Of a stretch of DNA of 46,459 bases, positions 24,156 to 44,996 are shown piece after piece. The translations under genes were made by a program, and so were the position numbers. The notes beneath the pieces were generated by a model, which was not told where the DNA came from, made no database searches, and worked only from the letters and a program-made list of their open reading frames with translations. Source of the stretch: Gammaproteobacteria bacterium (lineage in GTDB: Bacteria; Pseudomonadota; Gammaproteobacteria; S012-40). The DNA lies in NCBI GenBank assembly GCA_029884425.1, contig JAOUHV010000017.1, positions 1 through 46,459 of the forward strand, given 5' to 3'. How positions within the stretch are numbered: position 1 is the first letter of the stretch; each line of letters starts with the position of its first letter.

Positions 24156-25682
24156 TCAGGGGGCCTTGCCCACCAATTTACGGTCCATTTCCCGCACTCG
24201 CACCACTTGCTGCCAGAACAAATCCTCAAGAATATCCGGGACGCGACTGATCAACTTGCGAAACACATGGGCATAAATACGTATACACACGCAGTCGGTT
24301 TTGGCGCGGGCACTGGCCGAGCGAGGTAAACCATCCAGCGCCGACAATTCACCCAACGTCGAGCCCGCCTGCAAATCATCCAGCACAACTTCTCGCTGAT
24401 CGCGATCGCTGACAAAGGCCTCGATATTGCCCTGCAGAATCAACAGCAGATAATCACCAAGATCGCCCTCACGCCAAATCATTGTGCCGGCAGGAATGCG
24501 CATTTCCACACCGCAACGATACAACTCGCGCAGCGAGGCTTCGGAATATTTTTTCTTCTGAATAAAAAACCCGCTGAACTCGACATTCAACAACTCATAA
24601 ATTCGCTCAACACTGTCTTCTTCGATGTACACCACTGAAAATGCCAGTTGATGCTGATAGTCCAGCGCCAGATCGGAAATGATGTTGGAGAACAATGCGC
24701 GGAAGCCTCGATAGTCCGGACGATACTGACTGACATCCACGGCAGTGCCGTTGTAGCCGATGTAAAACGCAAACACTTTGCTTTCCTTGCCACGCCACAG
24801 CTTCTGCCAATCAGGACGAATGTCATTGGCAAAGCATGCAAACGGATCCAGGCCAAAGGCGTGAAAACTCAAATCCGACAGACCATCACTGCCGTAGCGC
24901 AATGGATTCAGCTCAATCGGGATAAACTGATCTTTGTAAAACCGAAACTCACCATGCAGCGGCAATGATTTCGCCTGCAGGGTTTTATTCATCTCGGTGA
25001 AAAACACCACCAGCTTATCGTGCAAATCCTGATAAATCTCATGCGTGGTGTAGTACACCACGTGCAGATAGGCTTTGTTGTCAGGAATGGGGTGATGGCA
25101 AATGTTGGTAATGACCGGTTTGCCTTCGGCGTCGAAAAACATGTCAGCCGCATATTCTTCGCCTTCGATAAATTCTTCAATCAGAAAATCTTCCGTCGAC
25201 AACACCTTGTCGGAAAAAATACTGACTTTGCGCGTCAGCTCCTGTTCGATGTCGCGCACAACTGCGGACAAATCCATTTTTCCCTGCAGCATTCGTCCGC
25301 CACTGCCCCAGTAACCTTTCACTGGTTTGACGAAATATTTTTTGCTGGGGTCCAACTGCTGCGTGGGCAAATCACTCAACTTGATCGGTTTGAAATACAA
25401 GTTGGGAAACATGCCCTGCAACAACTGCCGACTGGAAACTTTGTTCTTCAGTTGCTCGACCGCATGGCAACGCTGCGGATCATCCCAGCGCTGCAACACC
25501 AATTCCAATACAGTTTCAGAGGTGATGCAGACTTTGTCCTGGGCGGCAAAACGGATTCCGGGATCATCCAACAGTTGCTGTCGCGACAACACGCGCAGGT
25601 GTTCGCCTTGAGGGATCACATTCAAAATCCCTGCTCCTGCATGGTCCGCAACGATAAACCAGGTGGTTGCTGCATTGCTCAT
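24156..25682 (-). CDS. ATP-grasp domain protein fused to a cyclic-nucleotide-binding domain
   Basis: The 508-residue protein has two parts. Residues about 75-300 look like an ATP-grasp ligase: YFVKPVKGYWGSGG (116-129, nucleotide lysine and glycine loop), FLIEEFIEGEEYAADM (166-181) and IPIELNPLRYG (254-264, metal-binding E257 and N259). Residues about 385-500 form a cyclic-nucleotide-binding domain with the phosphate cassette G444-E-L-S-A-L-D-G-L-P-R454-S-A-S; the arginine that grips the cyclic phosphate is present, and there is no HTH after it. ATP-grasp enzymes join a carboxylate to an amine or thiol; the substrate here is unknown. The gene stands alone with its own terminator. The start lacks a strong ribosome-binding site. 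Confidence 0.85.
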   Translation of the reverse strand: MSNAATTWFIVADHAGAGILNVIPQGEHLRVLSRQQLLDDPGIRFAAQDKVCITSETVLELVLQRWDDPQRCHAVEQLKNKVSSRQLLQGMFPNLYFKPIKLSDLPTQQLDPSKKYFVKPVKGYWGSGGRMLQGKMDLSAVVRDIEQELTRKVSIFSDKVLSTEDFLIEEFIEGEEYAADMFFDAEGKPVITNICHHPIPDNKAYLHVVYYTTHEIYQDLHDKLVVFFTEMNKTLQAKSLPLHGEFRFYKDQFIPIELNPLRYGSDGLSDLSFHAFGLDPFACFANDIRPDWQKLWRGKESKVFAFYIGYNGTAVDVSQYRPDYRGFRALFSNIISDLALDYQHQLAFSVVYIEEDSVERIYELLNVEFSGFFIQKKKYSEASLRELYRCGVEMRIPAGTMIWREGDLGDYLLLILQGNIEAFVSDRDQREVVLDDLQAGSTLGELSALDGLPRSASARAKTDCVCIRIYAHVFRKLISRVPDILEDLFWQQVVRVREMDRKLVGKAP

Positions 25683-26723: not shown

Positions 26724-28313
26724 TCACAAACGCCAATCGCGAATCTGTTGTGCTGCCCGAATTCCTGAGCGCAACGCACCTTCCATCGTGCCTTGCCAGT
26801 CATACACTGAATCCGTATGTTCACCGGCAAACAACACATTGCCCACAGGCAGTGCCTCCAGACCAGCTATCCCGGTGAAATACCCCGGGGCATTGCAACT
26901 GTAACTGCCTTTGGCAAATTCATTGTGCGGCCATGCCTGCAACACTGCGGCGATTTGCGCATCGTCGGTGCGAATTTCCAATCCCTGAATGCCGGGATAA
27001 ACCAGATTCAAATCGCGCAAAAACGCAGCCGCGTTTTTCTGCACAGCATCAGGCAACAAACTGGCACCGCGCTTTCCAGAAGAAAAATCTGTCAAAATCG
27101 CATGCTGACTGGTCGCCAAGGTAGGATTGGTTTCCCAGGTTGTTTGATGATTGGGCAAATCAGCTTCCGCCAGACCGTCGTAGCCTAGCTCACGCCAATA
27201 GGGACGCTGAAATGCGTACATGGTTTTCGCGTTGGTTCCTGACTGCAACGAGGCAATCGCATGGTTTTTCCATGCAGGAAACTGCAGCGAATCGTCCAGC
27301 GCAATATTTTTCAGCACACTGAATGGAATAGCCAGCACGACCAGATCGTGCTTGATCACCTGGCCGTTGGCAAAACTCAACTGCACTTGACCATTGGCTG
27401 TGCGTCCAATGTGTTCCAGCGCCATTTGATAGTGAATCTGTGTCTCCAGTTGTGCAGCCATGCGCAGCGGAATCTGCTGATTGCCTTCAACCACGTGATA
27501 GCGCTCGTCACTAAACAGCCCCCAAGGCCGCCAATAGGTATTGCGATCAGAGTTCATAAACAGCAAGAAACTCAAGCAACTTTGCTGTTCCAGCGGCACG
27601 CCGTATTCGCCTTCGCAGGCAGTGCGAAATACGGCTTTAAGCAGCGGGCTGGCACCCTTGCTGTCCAGGTAATCCGACAAATTAATTTTGTCCAGCCGCG
27701 CATCATGTTCAGTGTGTTGCTGTGCTGTGGGTTGCGCCGACAGCATTTGCAAATCATCCTGCATTGCGGCAACCAACGCATTGTAGTCTTCGATAATATC
27801 CTGATCGCGATAATGTTGACCGAAGAAATAATAGGCGTGTTCGCCCGGTATTTTTGTGATGTCTTCCAGGGTCAAACCAAATTCACGTGCGTAGGCCAGC
27901 ATGTGATCATGACGTGAGTCAATCAGCTCGCCCCCCAGCTCGATGTTGTGGCCAAAAAAATTCGTCTGTGAATAGCAACGACCACCCACACGTTCGGAGC
28001 CTTCATAAAGGCTGGCGCGGATTCCTCGTTTGGCTAATTCATAGCCACAACTGAGTCCGGCAATCCCTGCGCCGACAATGCCAATACTTGGCGCGTGCGA
28101 ATGCGGGTGTTTTTTCCTTTTGAGATTGGTCAACGCCTTTGACGCCAGCGAAGTGACTGCGCCGCGTGCTGACTCTAGCGACTGTGCGATCGTTGGCGAT
28201 TTATCGAATTGGAAAATCTCAATGCCTTCGTCAACAGGCACCTTGTTGATCAGGCATAAATGCGCAATCGCCTGAAGCTCTTGCAATCGGATAAAAGATT
28301 TGCTCCTTGACAT
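26724..28313 (-). CDS. Flavin monoamine oxidase family protein, cytoplasmic-type paralogue
   Basis: The 529-residue product binds FAD through GIVGAGIAGLSCGYELAKRG (about 78-97) with E-G-S-E-R-V-G-G-R next, the ELGGELIDS motif, and the C-terminal FAGEHTDSVYDWQGTMEGA. These mark the flavin amine oxidase superfamily, which oxidises amines and releases hydrogen peroxide or reduces an acceptor. It aligns along its whole length with the protein at 43311-44996. It lacks that protein's twin-arginine motif and its CXXCH insert; its N-terminal 75 residues are basic and not a convincing signal. GAGA precedes the ATG by 7 nt. The substrate is unknown. Confidence 0.88.
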   Translation of the reverse strand: MSRSKSFIRLQELQAIAHLCLINKVPVDEGIEIFQFDKSPTIAQSLESARGAVTSLASKALTNLKRKKHPHSHAPSIGIVGAGIAGLSCGYELAKRGIRASLYEGSERVGGRCYSQTNFFGHNIELGGELIDSRHDHMLAYAREFGLTLEDITKIPGEHAYYFFGQHYRDQDIIEDYNALVAAMQDDLQMLSAQPTAQQHTEHDARLDKINLSDYLDSKGASPLLKAVFRTACEGEYGVPLEQQSCLSFLLFMNSDRNTYWRPWGLFSDERYHVVEGNQQIPLRMAAQLETQIHYQMALEHIGRTANGQVQLSFANGQVIKHDLVVLAIPFSVLKNIALDDSLQFPAWKNHAIASLQSGTNAKTMYAFQRPYWRELGYDGLAEADLPNHQTTWETNPTLATSQHAILTDFSSGKRGASLLPDAVQKNAAAFLRDLNLVYPGIQGLEIRTDDAQIAAVLQAWPHNEFAKGSYSCNAPGYFTGIAGLEALPVGNVLFAGEHTDSVYDWQGTMEGALRSGIRAAQQIRDWRL

Positions 28314-29254: not shown

Positions 29255-30514
29255 ATGACGCAAGCGCCTCAACGCCACTCATCCATCATTGCGACGGCAT
29301 GGCTATTCATCCGCGCAATCAGCACCGATATCCGCTCGGGCAGAATAACGCTGTGGGCCGGCAGCATGGTGTACACCACTCTGCTATCACTGGTGCCCTT
29401 GATCGCCGTCAGCTTTTCATTACTCAAAGCCTTTGGTGTGCACAACCAGTTACGCCCGTTGCTAAACGAGTTACTCACACCGCTGGGAGAACAGGGACAA
29501 ATCCTCAGTCACAACATCATCACTGCAGTCGATCAAGTGCAGGTCGGCGTGTTGGGCGTGGTGGGTGTGGTGTTCCTGTTTGTGACCGTGGTGCTGATGA
29601 TTTCAAGGGTTGAAGAGGCTCTGAACGAACAATGGCAAACCCAGGACGTGCGTCCGTGGCACAGCCGAATCGGCTATTATTTGAGCGCCTTAATCTTGGC
29701 TCCACCACTGGTAGTGTCAGCTTTCAGTTTTTTGGGTGCCTTGTTTTCGGCTTCCCTGCCCTACGCGCCCGCCCTGTTGTTGACACTGTGGCCAAAAATC
29801 ACCATCGCTGTGCCGCTGTTCGTCACCGTGCTGGCCTTCATGCTGATTTATCTTTTTTTGCCGTTTACCACGGTTCGCCCCGGCGCGGCGCTGATTGGCG
29901 CACTGTTTTCCACTGCTACCTGGAAACTGTCAGGCTGGGCTTTTGCCTCGATTATCAGCCACGCCAGCCATTACGACGCCATTTATTCCGGTTTTACCAT
30001 TGTCATTGTGCTGATGATGTGGCTGTACCTGAGCTGGTTGATTTTCATTCTGGGTGCTCGCATCGCCTTCTATTGTCAGCAGCCCCACGCCATGCACTTC
30101 CCCAGTCGCATGCCGCCGAGCACCGACCAGGAACTGCTGGCACTGAACCTGATGTTCCGCATTGGGCTGCACTTTCGCCAGGGAATTCCCGGCCCCACCC
30201 AGGCCCAGCTCAGTCTTGCGCTGGGACAAAACGACCATGCCGTGGCACAGCTTCTGCACAGACTGGAGCAGTCGGGGCTGGTCAACCAGCTGCGCAAGGG
30301 GAAGTTTGTGCCGGCCAAGGCACTGGACAGCATCAGCCTGTTTGACATTGTCAGCGCCGTTGATGACACCGCCAGCCAGGCTCCCCTGCCAGACTGCCCA
30401 GCCCTGCAGGAAGTGCGACAACAATACGCTCGAGCACGACAACAAGCGTTGGTCGCCATCAGTCTGAACCATTGGTTACAACAATCTTTGATAAAGAACC
30501 CCACACTAAAATGA
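29255..30514 (+). CDS. YihY/BrkB-family inner-membrane protein with C-terminal winged-helix-like region
   Basis: The 419-residue protein carries the family's opening block (AGSMVYTTLLSLVPLIAVSFSLL), about six membrane helices over residues 30-265, and the conserved FLPFTTVRPGAALIGALF and YSGFTIVIVLMMWLYLSWLI. The family was once called ribonuclease BN in error; its role is envelope-related but undefined. Residues 285-400 form a soluble region (PTQAQLSLALGQNDHAVAQLLHRLEQSGLV) resembling a winged helix. The stop overlaps the next gene's ATG by 4 nt, so the two are translationally coupled. Confidence 0.88.
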   Translation: MTQAPQRHSSIIATAWLFIRAISTDIRSGRITLWAGSMVYTTLLSLVPLIAVSFSLLKAFGVHNQLRPLLNELLTPLGEQGQILSHNIITAVDQVQVGVLGVVGVVFLFVTVVLMISRVEEALNEQWQTQDVRPWHSRIGYYLSALILAPPLVVSAFSFLGALFSASLPYAPALLLTLWPKITIAVPLFVTVLAFMLIYLFLPFTTVRPGAALIGALFSTATWKLSGWAFASIISHASHYDAIYSGFTIVIVLMMWLYLSWLIFILGARIAFYCQQPHAMHFPSRMPPSTDQELLALNLMFRIGLHFRQGIPGPTQAQLSLALGQNDHAVAQLLHRLEQSGLVNQLRKGKFVPAKALDSISLFDIVSAVDDTASQAPLPDCPALQEVRQQYARARQQALVAISLNHWLQQSLIKNPTLK

Positions 30515-34146: not shown

Positions 34147-34254
34147 GATCGAATTTCTCTCTTACAGAAACAGATTTAATCCATTGGAGCCATGTTAGCC
34201 CCATTCCTACACTGTTGCCAGCGTTCCACCGTCTTACTCACAAGGAGAAACTGT

Positions 34255-35268
34255 ATGAAATATTTAGTGATTTCACTGGGGCTGATCACCAGCGGCTCGG
34301 CCTGGGCCATGGCCCCCCTGCCTGACAGCGTCCCCGTGCCTGCCGACAACCCCATGACTGCTGCCAAAGTGGAACTGGGCAAGCAGCTGTTCTTTGATCC
34401 ACGCCTGTCGGTTGACGGCACCGTATCGTGCAACTCCTGCCACAACGTCATGGCCAGCGGTACCGACAATCGCGCCACTTCTGTCGGCATCAACGGTCAA
34501 CGCGGCGGTCGCAGTGCCCCCACCGTCTGGAATGCGGCGTACCTGAGCGCGCAATTCTGGGATGGTCGCGCCGCCACCCTGGAAGATCAGGCCAAGGGCC
34601 CACCCTTGAACCCGATCGAAATGGGCATGCCCTCTGCCAAGGCAGTAGAAGATCGTCTGTCCAGCATCCCCGGCTACAAGGCACAGTTTGAAGCTGTATT
34701 TGGCGGCGTCAGCTACGACAACATGGCCAAAGCCATCGCCGCCTACGAGCGCACCCTGATCACTCGCAACAGCCCATTTGATCGCTACATGAAAGGTGAC
34801 AAAACCGCCATGAGCGAACAAGCCGTCAAAGGGATGAAGCGCTTTGAAGAGCTGGGTTGCTCCGGCTGTCACAGCGGTGCCAATTTTGCCGGCCCGGAAA
34901 TGGCCGTCGGTGAGGGTTTCTACCAGAAGTTCCCCACCCACGACAGCGAATACACCCAGAAATATGACCTCAAGTCAGACCAAGGCCGCTTTGGCGTCAC
35001 CAAAAAGCCAGAGGACATGAACGTCTGGCGCGTCCCTAGTCTGCGTAACATCGCCACCACCGCGCCCTATTTCCACAATGGCTCGGTGAAAACCCTGGGC
35101 GAGGCCATCCGCGTCATGGGTGCCACTCAGCTGAACAAAACCTTGAGTGACGAAGAGGTTGCCGACCTCAGTGCCTTCCTCAAAAGCCTGACCGGCGACT
35201 TCCCTGAACAAACCATGCCCCGCCTGCCCGGCATAGCCGGCACCAGCATGGTGGGTGACGAGAAGTAA
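34255..35268 (+). CDS. Diheme cytochrome c peroxidase
   Basis: The 337-residue precursor starts with an 18-residue signal peptide ending SAWA. Two c-type haem sites are present: C59-N-S-C62-H63 and C202-S-G-C205-H206, with the conserved FDPRLS and FWDGRAATLEDQAKGP segments near the first. The enzyme reduces hydrogen peroxide to water in the periplasm with electrons from a small cytochrome c or azurin. AAGGAG lies 7 nt before the ATG; the longer upstream frame would bury the signal peptide. It is divergent from oxyR and ends in a terminator. Confidence 0.95.
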   Translation: MKYLVISLGLITSGSAWAMAPLPDSVPVPADNPMTAAKVELGKQLFFDPRLSVDGTVSCNSCHNVMASGTDNRATSVGINGQRGGRSAPTVWNAAYLSAQFWDGRAATLEDQAKGPPLNPIEMGMPSAKAVEDRLSSIPGYKAQFEAVFGGVSYDNMAKAIAAYERTLITRNSPFDRYMKGDKTAMSEQAVKGMKRFEELGCSGCHSGANFAGPEMAVGEGFYQKFPTHDSEYTQKYDLKSDQGRFGVTKKPEDMNVWRVPSLRNIATTAPYFHNGSVKTLGEAIRVMGATQLNKTLSDEEVADLSAFLKSLTGDFPEQTMPRLPGIAGTSMVGDEK

Positions 35269-42365: not shown

Positions 42366-43277
42366 TTATCCGCGCCGAATTCGCTGCAGCAACTCGATGG
42401 AGGCATCGACCTCGACTTTGCGCACTGCGACACTTTCCACGTTCACTCCCAGCGGAATATTTTTTTCTGCGGCAAACGCCTGCAGTTCTTGCCAGGTTTG
42501 CACACAGACATCGACGGATTTTTGCAGAATATCCTCTGAGTAACGCAAATCATTTTCCAGCCAACGAGGAATACTGATTCCCAGCCACTTCATAAATTGC
42601 AGTGTTTTTTCCGAACCACACGGCGTCAGCGTTAAGATCATCGGCACCAGCGGGATTCCGTGATCACGGCCGAAATAATAGTAATCGGACAGAAAATTCT
42701 TGGTAGCATTAACGTCATACACACCCTGCGTCACAAAAAACGAACAACCCTGCTGAATTTTGCCAAACACGCGCTGATGCTCATCGCCTTTCAACTGATG
42801 CCGTTCAGGTATCGCCACGCCGCCCAGCAACACATCGGGGCGCAGCGCAGCTTTCAACGCATACGCCTCGCGCATGCTCATCGTGACTGGCTGATCCCGC
42901 GATGCGGCGCCAACAAACACCGTCGCGCTATCGGTTGCTGACAAATTAACCAAAAAATCGCTCAACGCCTGCCGACTGTATTTTCCGGCGGCGCGATACA
43001 GAATTTTTGCCATTGGCAACGACGCCAGATGTTGGCGACTGTATTCAAAACAATCCAGAGTTGCCATAAATGGAAACGGACGCTCGTCATCGGTGCGCGT
43101 GGCTTCGTCCTGAATGTCGTACAACACCAAGCCATCAATGGGCAATCCCAGTAAACGCTCAACCTGCCTGGCGGCAATTTCACGCACTTTATCTTCTGCC
43201 GTATCCGCTTTGGGCGGCACCATGCCGTAAAGCACAATACCACTTTCACGCTGCCTGATTTTATCCGCCAATGTCAT
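42366..43277 (-). CDS. Methylenetetrahydrofolate reductase-like protein
   Basis: The 303-residue product fits the MTHFR superfamily, a flavin-containing TIM barrel: LYGMVPPKADTAEDKVRE near the start, LGGVAIPERHQLKGDEHQRV, GCSFFVTQGVYDVNATKNFL, and LVPMILTLTPCGSEKTLQFM. True MetF reduces methylene-THF to methyl-THF for methionine. Here the usual R-G-D region is replaced by FVGAASRDQPVTMSMREAY, so it is more likely a paralogue with related but unknown C1 chemistry. ATG 43277 is preferred over an upstream TTG. It lies 33 bp downstream of the haem-bearing amine oxidase on the same strand and before the cysteine-motif gene. Confidence 0.8.
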   Translation of the reverse strand: MTLADKIRQRESGIVLYGMVPPKADTAEDKVREIAARQVERLLGLPIDGLVLYDIQDEATRTDDERPFPFMATLDCFEYSRQHLASLPMAKILYRAAGKYSRQALSDFLVNLSATDSATVFVGAASRDQPVTMSMREAYALKAALRPDVLLGGVAIPERHQLKGDEHQRVFGKIQQGCSFFVTQGVYDVNATKNFLSDYYYFGRDHGIPLVPMILTLTPCGSEKTLQFMKWLGISIPRWLENDLRYSEDILQKSVDVCVQTWQELQAFAAEKNIPLGVNVESVAVRKVEVDASIELLQRIRRG

Positions 43278-43310
43278 ACGCAAACCTGATCACCAAACAA
43301 AGTAGCCATC

Positions 43311-44996
43311 CTATCCCGAAATACGACGCGCGCGAATGTCGGCCAGTAATTCCTTCGCAGCGGCGACACCGGACATCGCCGCACCTTCCATGTAGCCTTG
43401 CCAATCATAAAACGAACTGGTGTGCTCGCCAGCAAATTTCAGTGCGCCTGCCGATTGTGCTTCCAGACCGGCAATGCCAGTGAAATAACCAGGCTGATTG
43501 CCCACATACGAACCTCGACTGAACTGCTGTGCACTCCAATGCGCACGCTCAAGCACATAACGACCTTCACTGTCTTTCAGTGCAACCGCCTTCGCGCCGG
43601 GAATGACCTTGTCGTAATCAGTCAAGAATTGCTCTGCCTGAGCCTGTAAAACATTTGGTTTGATTTGCATGAAACTACTGCCTTCACCATGACAGTCACT
43701 GCAATTTCCCGCAGAACCATTCAGCGAACCTTGTAAGCGTCGCGCCAGATTGCCGCCGGAATAATTGGTAATCACCCCCACCTCCGTGTGCTGCGACCAA
43801 TTGGTTTCCCAAGTATTTTGCAACTGAGGCAAATCGCTAAGCACATCTCCGCTGTTACCAGCCTTGATCCACGGACGACCGTTAAACGCATACATGGTCT
43901 TGACGTTATCACCATATCGCAGCGTATTGATCGCGCGCATTTTATCCGCTGACAATTTCAACGATGCATCCAGTTCGACCGTACGCAACACAGTGAACGG
44001 GATTGCCAGCACCACTGCATCGGCGATTTCCGCAGTTGGCAAATTATTGAAATACAATTCAAATTGATTTTGACCATTGCGCGCCAAGCGCGTCAGACGC
44101 ATGCCTTGTTCAATTTTTCCGGGCAAGGTTTTAGCCAGACGAATGGGAATTTGATCCGAACCTTCAGTGATGTGATAACGCTCGTCACTGTAAATCCCCA
44201 ACGGAGAAAATTCATCGTCAACTTCCAGCGACAACAATAAATTCAGCGCGCTCTGTTCCGAGGTTTCCAATCCGTACTCGATATTGCACGCAAGATCCAG
44301 CGCCACTCTGGCCAATGGCAAATCGCGAGCATGTTTGTCCAGATAGGCGGCCAAATCCATGCTGTCTAACGCGACTTCTACCTTGGTATGCTTGAAGAAT
44401 GTCGGCTCATGAATTTTGGCCTGATCCGGCGCAATGCGTTTGGCAAACACCCGAATTTGTTCAACCACACTTTCCTCTGAATGCGCCTTGCCATTCAAAA
44501 AGAAAAAACTCTCGCCAGGAATATCTTCCACATCCTCCAGCGTTAATCCTAACTGTTTAGCGTAGGCCAGCAGCAACGGATTTTCTGAATCAACAAATTC
44601 ACCACCGCGTTCAATCACTTTGCCGGCAATGCGCCGGCTCGAACACATGCGCCCGCCCAGGCGATGCGGATTGGCTTCGTAAATGGTCGCTGTCACACCT
44701 TGCTTGGCCAATTCCGCTGCACACACAATTCCCGCCGTGCCACCGCCAACAATGGCAATACGCGCCTTGGTTTTGATTCTATCCGCTGCCAGCAACGCCT
44801 CAGGAAACATCGTTGCACCGGCCAATGCACCAGAAATTTTCAAAAACTTGCGACGCTCCAGCAGATGCTGCCGAAAGTAAAAAGTCGCCTCATCCCGTCG
44901 CACCATGGCTTCTTGAGTTGAGATGCCGTGTGCATTAGCCATACGGGCCAAACGGAATGCCTGTTTCACTTTTCGGAACAACTGACTTTTGGCCAT
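43311..44996 (-). CDS. Flavin monoamine oxidase family protein with inserted c-type haem motif and a twin-arginine-like segment
   Basis: The 561-residue protein has the FAD motif IAIVGGGTAGIVCAAELAKQG (80-100), R-L-G-G-R-M, ERGGEFVDS and C-terminal FAGEHTSSFYDWQGYMEGAA, placing it in the flavin amine oxidase superfamily. Before the FAD domain lies E47-R-R-K-F-L-K followed by a hydrophobic stretch (ISGALAGATMFPEALLAA), a Tat-like signal but preceded by about 45 extra residues. Residues about 424-447 form an insertion relative to its paralogue at 26724-28313 and contain C432-S-D-C435-H436-G, a c-type haem motif (codons 43689-43703). Haem c is attached in the periplasm, which agrees with Tat export of a folded flavoprotein. 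The haem would pass flavin electrons to respiratory carriers. Substrate unknown. Confidence 0.9.
   Translation of the reverse strand: MAKSQLFRKVKQAFRLARMANAHGISTQEAMVRRDEATFYFRQHLLERRKFLKISGALAGATMFPEALLAADRIKTKARIAIVGGGTAGIVCAAELAKQGVTATIYEANPHRLGGRMCSSRRIAGKVIERGGEFVDSENPLLLAYAKQLGLTLEDVEDIPGESFFFLNGKAHSEESVVEQIRVFAKRIAPDQAKIHEPTFFKHTKVEVALDSMDLAAYLDKHARDLPLARVALDLACNIEYGLETSEQSALNLLLSLEVDDEFSPLGIYSDERYHITEGSDQIPIRLAKTLPGKIEQGMRLTRLARNGQNQFELYFNNLPTAEIADAVVLAIPFTVLRTVELDASLKLSADKMRAINTLRYGDNVKTMYAFNGRPWIKAGNSGDVLSDLPQLQNTWETNWSQHTEVGVITNYSGGNLARRLQGSLNGSAGNCSDCHGEGSSFMQIKPNVLQAQAEQFLTDYDKVIPGAKAVALKDSEGRYVLERAHWSAQQFSRGSYVGNQPGYFTGIAGLEAQSAGALKFAGEHTSSFYDWQGYMEGAAMSGVAAAKELLADIRARRISG

Follow-up and report, generated by a model that had tools for sequence, protein, structure and literature searches.

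A conserved CXXCH loop within a flavin amine oxidoreductase: a candidate haem c site in a putative flavocytochrome

Introduction

Can a flavoprotein amine oxidoreductase (FAO) be turned into a haem protein by a single short loop? FAO enzymes were long all named oxidases, and the question is raised by one such gene in a gammaproteobacterial contig (hereafter the window, 46,459 nucleotides in full), in which an earlier note had recognized a c-type haem motif. The same note held that known flavin amine oxidases use only oxygen or separate acceptors, which is outdated in view of the haem b of spermidine dehydrogenase (PMC12564564) and the FAO-cytochrome c fusion of subclade 3F (PMC12224317). Many bacterial FAOs are in fact cytochrome c-reducing dehydrogenases with twin-arginine (Tat) signals (PMC12224317). 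The oxidase of the window is compared here with its insert-less relatives and with these known systems.

Results

The oxidase, its fold and its predicted export signal

The features under discussion are the following, in window coordinates.

43311-44996, minus strand: flavoprotein amine oxidoreductase (FAO, PF01593, NAD_binding_8), 561 aa, by Pfam and fold match; carries the CXXCH insertion
44838-44858, minus strand: twin-arginine (Tat-type) motif E47-R48-R49-K50-F51-L52-K53, located before the FAD GxGxxG and preceded by an N-terminal extension
43899-43901, minus strand: K366, candidate FAO active-site lysine beside flavin N5, by presumed equivalence
43656-43730, minus strand: inserted loop, residues 423-447, GSLNGSAGNCSDCHGEGSSFMQIKP, without counterpart in insert-less homologues
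43689-43703, minus strand: C432-S-D-C435-H436, predicted c-type haem attachment motif, TGC AGT GAC TGT CAT
26724-28313, minus strand: insert-less paralogue, 529 aa, 40% identical to the oxidase, used for comparison only

The open reading frame of the oxidase is complete, and the match of its product to PF01593 (E 1.4e-38; 133.8 bits, gathering threshold 19.8) places it in the FAO family. A structure search of the PDB with the oxidase model returns monoamine oxidases at the top (E 6.5e-25), which indicates the FAO fold, and the Rossmann GxGxxG of the FAD domain is conserved at approximately residue 83; the protein is thus a predicted FAD-binding amine oxidoreductase. The AlphaFold model is of moderate quality (mean pLDDT 73.5); the insert is blurred in it, as are parts of the active site. 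K366 does not vary among the 16 homologues of the first alignment, and the role of the active-site lysine in FAOs has been described (PMC12224317). Monoamine oxidases A and B share the fold, and the invariant lysine probably corresponds to their active-site lysine, but these enzymes use oxygen and are free of haem. They are not known to contain the insertion or a CXXCH motif.

The motif, an insertion of about 23 residues that the paralogue lacks and a twin-arginine-like segment ahead of the FAD domain had all been proposed in the earlier note, and each was recovered here. The flavocytochrome c class calls for an export signal, which the oxidase carries in the form of the RRxFL-type motif, and an RRxFL or RRxLL sequence lies 34-37 residues ahead of the FAD GxGxxG in all nine members that bear CXXCH. 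From the Tat motif we infer that the oxidase is exported to the periplasm. The insert-less paralogue contains neither the insertion nor a recognizable twin-arginine motif.

Upstream of the twin-arginine motif, a helical N-terminal extension of approximately 45 residues (M-x-[RK]-[ST]...; window 44859-44996, minus strand) is present. It is common to most of the FAO family members compared, including the window paralogue without a Tat motif, and it is long for the n-region of a Tat signal.

The insertion and its conservation

In the multiple alignment, residues 423-447 of the oxidase stand against a single residue in the insert-less homologues, which gives a net insertion of 24 residues. The AlphaFold pLDDT is below 50 over loop residues 424-444, and Pfam detects no cytochrome c domain in the oxidase, the motif being located within the insert. 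Given the composition of the protein, approximately 0.001 chance CxxCH motifs are expected in its 561 residues, and conservation among homologues is stronger evidence for the motif than this statistic.

Retention of both cysteines and the histidine among homologues had been set beforehand as a test of the haem proposal. The alignment contains 35 homologues, 9 with and 26 without the insertion. A C-x-x-C-H sequence occurs in every one of the nine insert-bearing proteins, which belong to several lineages and in which the three residues are invariant, and in none of the 26 others. The insert ranges from 24 to 31 residues among the nine carriers (aligned segment). Outside the C, C and H, its mean pairwise identity is 25% (lowest value, 9%), compared with 60% over the rest of the domain, and the invariance of these three residues against such a variable background therefore indicates that selection acts on the motif.

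A second insert-bearing copy exists in the same genome (G000:C64:6639-8321), 57% identical to the window oxidase and containing CGGCH. A gammaproteobacterial MAG (nzgw582, L010) encodes a form with CSDCH, whose sequence is identical to that of L005, and two Nitrosomonas MAGs encode forms with CSLCH (UBA6494, L009) and CSHCH (L015). A further member, with CGGCH, is found in a MAG labelled delta proteobacterium (L011), and three other genomes of the same class contain CGNCH (L041), CGACH (L042) and CSTCH (L043). The insert-bearing proteins thus occur in Gammaproteobacteria, in Nitrosomonas MAGs and in a deltaproteobacteria-like class.

Scanning the genome contigs with a single protein gave no matches, and an alignment-based scan of the contigs yielded nine loci. 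In class and phylum searches around the host of the window, the insert-bearing form was found only in G319 and G376, which indicates that it is rare and scattered, and a genome search around G1104 did not reveal further members. Plasmid homologues from Calothrix and Nostoc (two full-length among 12 matches, the other ten weaker) do not contain the insert.

Evolutionary history

A maximum-likelihood tree was computed after removal of the insert columns. The nine insert-bearing proteins form one group (bootstrap 87, SH-aLRT 97), whose neighbours are insert-less homologues from Armatimonadetes and Planctomycetes; a single gain would be enough to account for the distribution of the insert. Most close relatives of each insert-bearing host lack the gene, which, together with the taxonomic scatter, suggests horizontal spread or frequent loss. 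Twin-arginine motifs are also present in many insert-less homologues, and export therefore probably came earlier than the haem motif.

Host machinery and gene neighbourhood

The host genome contains TatC, several proteins of the COX1 family (haem-copper oxidases) and two Cytochrom_C_asm genes close together (C11), whose size and order point to CcmC- and CcmF-like proteins. The cytochrome c maturation that the flavocytochrome c class also calls for is represented by the latter two genes. Judging from this gene content, the host can draw on protein export, on haem attachment and on a respiratory sink.

The neighbourhood comparison rests on five loci with usable flanks (the window, L009, L010, L015 and L018), the flanks of L011 and L041-L043 being short. 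None of the five has a directly adjacent cytochrome c gene, an arrangement to be expected of an oxidase with its own haem; the nearest such genes are separated from the oxidase by 2.3 kb in L015 and by 2.9 kb in L018. Comparison of the neighbourhoods revealed neither a shared partner nor a common clue to the substrate.

Several individual neighbours are recorded here for their own sake. In the window, the oxidase is followed 27 bases downstream by a gene (42366-43283, minus strand) for a weakly methylenetetrahydrofolate reductase-like protein (PF02219, 28.5 bits), and no gene of this type was recognized beside the other CXXCH-bearing homologues. The window also encodes a di-haem cytochrome c peroxidase (CCP_MauG) in which CXXCH occurs twice (34192-35268, plus strand), a protein with an unusual pairing of ATP-grasp and cyclic nucleotide-binding domains (24156-25682, minus strand) and a membrane protein of the BrkB family whose C-terminal region resembles an Rrf2/MarR winged helix (29255-30514, plus strand). 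In the Nitrosomonas MAG UBA6494, two genes come after the oxidase on its strand, first one of the NAD-dependent epimerase type and then one with a class I/II aminotransferase fold (L009:5726-7952); the pair resembles threonine dehydrogenase and 2-amino-3-ketobutyrate ligase, with a possible link to aminoacetone or threonine, and is not conserved at the other insert-bearing loci. In the nzgw582 MAG, a FeeM-type N-acyl amino acid synthase gene (L010:2651-3355) lies upstream of the CXXCH oxidase.

Discussion

A probable haem on the loop

The conserved residues make covalent attachment of haem c to the loop quite likely. System I (Ccm, as in the host) reads little beyond the CXXCH motif. Likewise, the bacterial cytochrome c synthase CcsBA loads haem on an 11-mer CXXCH peptide, for which both thiols and the histidine are needed (PMC8112865), and a short CXXCH fragment within a Cache domain binds haem c (PMC12889525); these two precedents render attachment to a loop of this kind plausible. 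The earlier proposal of a haem is sustained in its conserved c-type motif, its Tat-type FAO and the maturation genes of the host, and falls short in the contrast it drew with known FAOs.

A difficulty is that Tat substrates fold before export and haem c is attached outside, so maturation of the oxidase would depend on the loop remaining accessible. In the mechanism that we propose, a loop of 24-31 residues would have been inserted between a strand-turn segment and the next helix, with the gain of one covalent c-type haem. The folded flavoprotein would be exported by Tat, and the exposed loop would then be loaded with haem by Ccm System I. A substrate would be oxidized at the FAD, single electrons would be passed on to the loop haem, which would deliver them to a periplasmic acceptor, either a soluble cytochrome c or some other, and a haem-copper oxidase would receive them at the end. 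Transfer from FAD through haem to the respiratory chain is the best inference at present and is somewhat favoured, less firmly than the attachment itself. The simplest reading is that the insert clade bears its own electron-accepting haem, and the oxidase probably functions like a flavocytochrome c. Overall, the oxidase would be a periplasmic, Tat-exported flavocytochrome amine dehydrogenase with a haem c loop inside its FAO domain, a reading to which we assign a probability of roughly 0.6.

Predicted haem ligation and alternative functions

A normal cytochrome c domain buries its haem, and the loop has too few residues to do the same, which speaks against the proposed flavocytochrome. An identifiable sixth ligand is typical of most electron-transfer cytochromes and is not required of all c-type haem proteins. 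The motif aside, the alignment shows no histidine or methionine whose conservation is particular to the insert-bearing group; no candidate for the sixth ligand thus emerges, and the haem may be five-coordinate, with an open sixth position. An F-M-x-I segment is present in four of the nine insert-bearing proteins and is not universal. These properties, the lack of a conserved sixth ligand and a short, probably exposed insert, would also suit a different function, in which the enzyme carries the covalent haem c and yet works as an oxidase on oxygen, the open haem serving as a built-in peroxidase for the H2O2 produced by the flavin or as a binder of gas ligands. Such a function stays alive because most of the assayed Tat-signal FAOs without a neighbouring cytochrome gene are oxidases that react fast with oxygen (PMC12224317). 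It is nevertheless unlikely: both FAO dehydrogenases that use cytochrome c (PMC12224317) and the internal transfer from FAD to haem in spermidine dehydrogenase (PMC12564564) are firmly documented, and the sequence contains no sign of a peroxidase distal pocket.

Readings that dispense with haem fare worse. As the flavoprotein is probably periplasmic and its two invariant cysteines are spaced as CxxC, the pair could form a redox-active disulphide near the flavin that supplies thiol-disulphide partners with electrons in the manner of sulfhydryl oxidases. However, the histidine that immediately follows the second cysteine varies no more than the cysteines do, and it is needed for haem c attachment but not for a disulphide; additionally, Pfam finds no thiol-oxidase domain in the oxidase, and a periplasmic CXXCH would meet the Ccm system of the host, which leaves a disulphide function improbable. 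A metal-ion site or a structural loop with no redox role, which would accord with the variable length and low modelling confidence of the loop, is slightly less probable still, as only three potential ligands are conserved, with the exact CXXCH spacing, and no fourth is found in the loop. The brevity of the motif is all that could be said for a functionless chance or assembly feature, against which stands its very low expectation from composition. This origin is ruled out by the retention of the motif in nine separate proteins from different assemblies, including the second copy in the same genome.

Comparison with known systems

A flavocytochrome of the kind preferred here has partial parallels. 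NicA2 and Pnao with CycN, and their relatives (PMC12224317), are likewise members of the FAO superfamily with a Tat signal and act as periplasmic dehydrogenases feeding cytochrome c, as predicted for the window oxidase, but theirs is usually a separate, neighbouring cytochrome, whereas the CXXCH loop here lies inside the flavoprotein. Of the Tat signal and adjacent cytochrome c gene that mark the NicA2 type, the window oxidase possesses the Tat motif only. Subclade 3F, a Tat-bearing FAO-cytochrome c fusion (PMC12224317), combines a Tat signal, an FAO and a c-type haem (the last predicted in the window oxidase) in one polypeptide. Subclade 3F differs in that it is described as a fusion of two genes that includes a CytC domain, in contrast to a loop of 24-31 residues within the FAO domain, and no cytochrome c gene is fused to the FAO gene of the window.

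Spermidine dehydrogenase (SpDH, PDB 7D9G) carries a haem b on His54 and His562, which is located at the protein surface and reduced by FAD (PMC12564564), and thus resembles the window oxidase, with its predicted haem, as an FAD amine dehydrogenase with an internal haem. As far as its description allows comparison, it differs in that the haem b is held by two histidines, and neither a covalent haem c nor a CXXCH loop is described; SpDH is also absent from the sequence search output listed and from the best 50 fold matches. The sCache_heme (DUF3365) domains (PMC12889525) similarly contain a short cytochrome-like CXXCH fragment inside an unrelated fold, but they are sensor domains rather than flavoenzymes, and their haem has been demonstrated experimentally, whereas that of the oxidase is predicted from sequence. 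A search of an open-access literature library for an amine oxidase combining CXXCH and flavin returned one unrelated review and no description of such a protein. Internal haem in FAD amine dehydrogenases and FAO-cytochrome c fusions being already known, the difference here is the means, namely a loop in the catalytic domain, a few tens of residues long, with no cytochrome domain.

Implications

For the insert clade as a whole, the chances appear evenly balanced that a monophyletic, taxonomically scattered FAO lineage became flavocytochromes through the CXXCH loop alone, with no cytochrome domain. An oxidase would then have been turned into a respiratory dehydrogenase by a minimal route, an exposed haem wiring the flavin directly to the periplasmic electron pool. 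If the loop does make a one-protein flavocytochrome, the switch between oxygen and cytochrome c is directly testable against the insert-less sister enzymes. A CXXCH-loop FAO may also offer a compact scaffold for direct-electron-transfer biosensors. If the proposal is true, the loop would be a second case, and one from an enzyme, in which an existing fold is made into a haem protein by a short CXXCH fragment.
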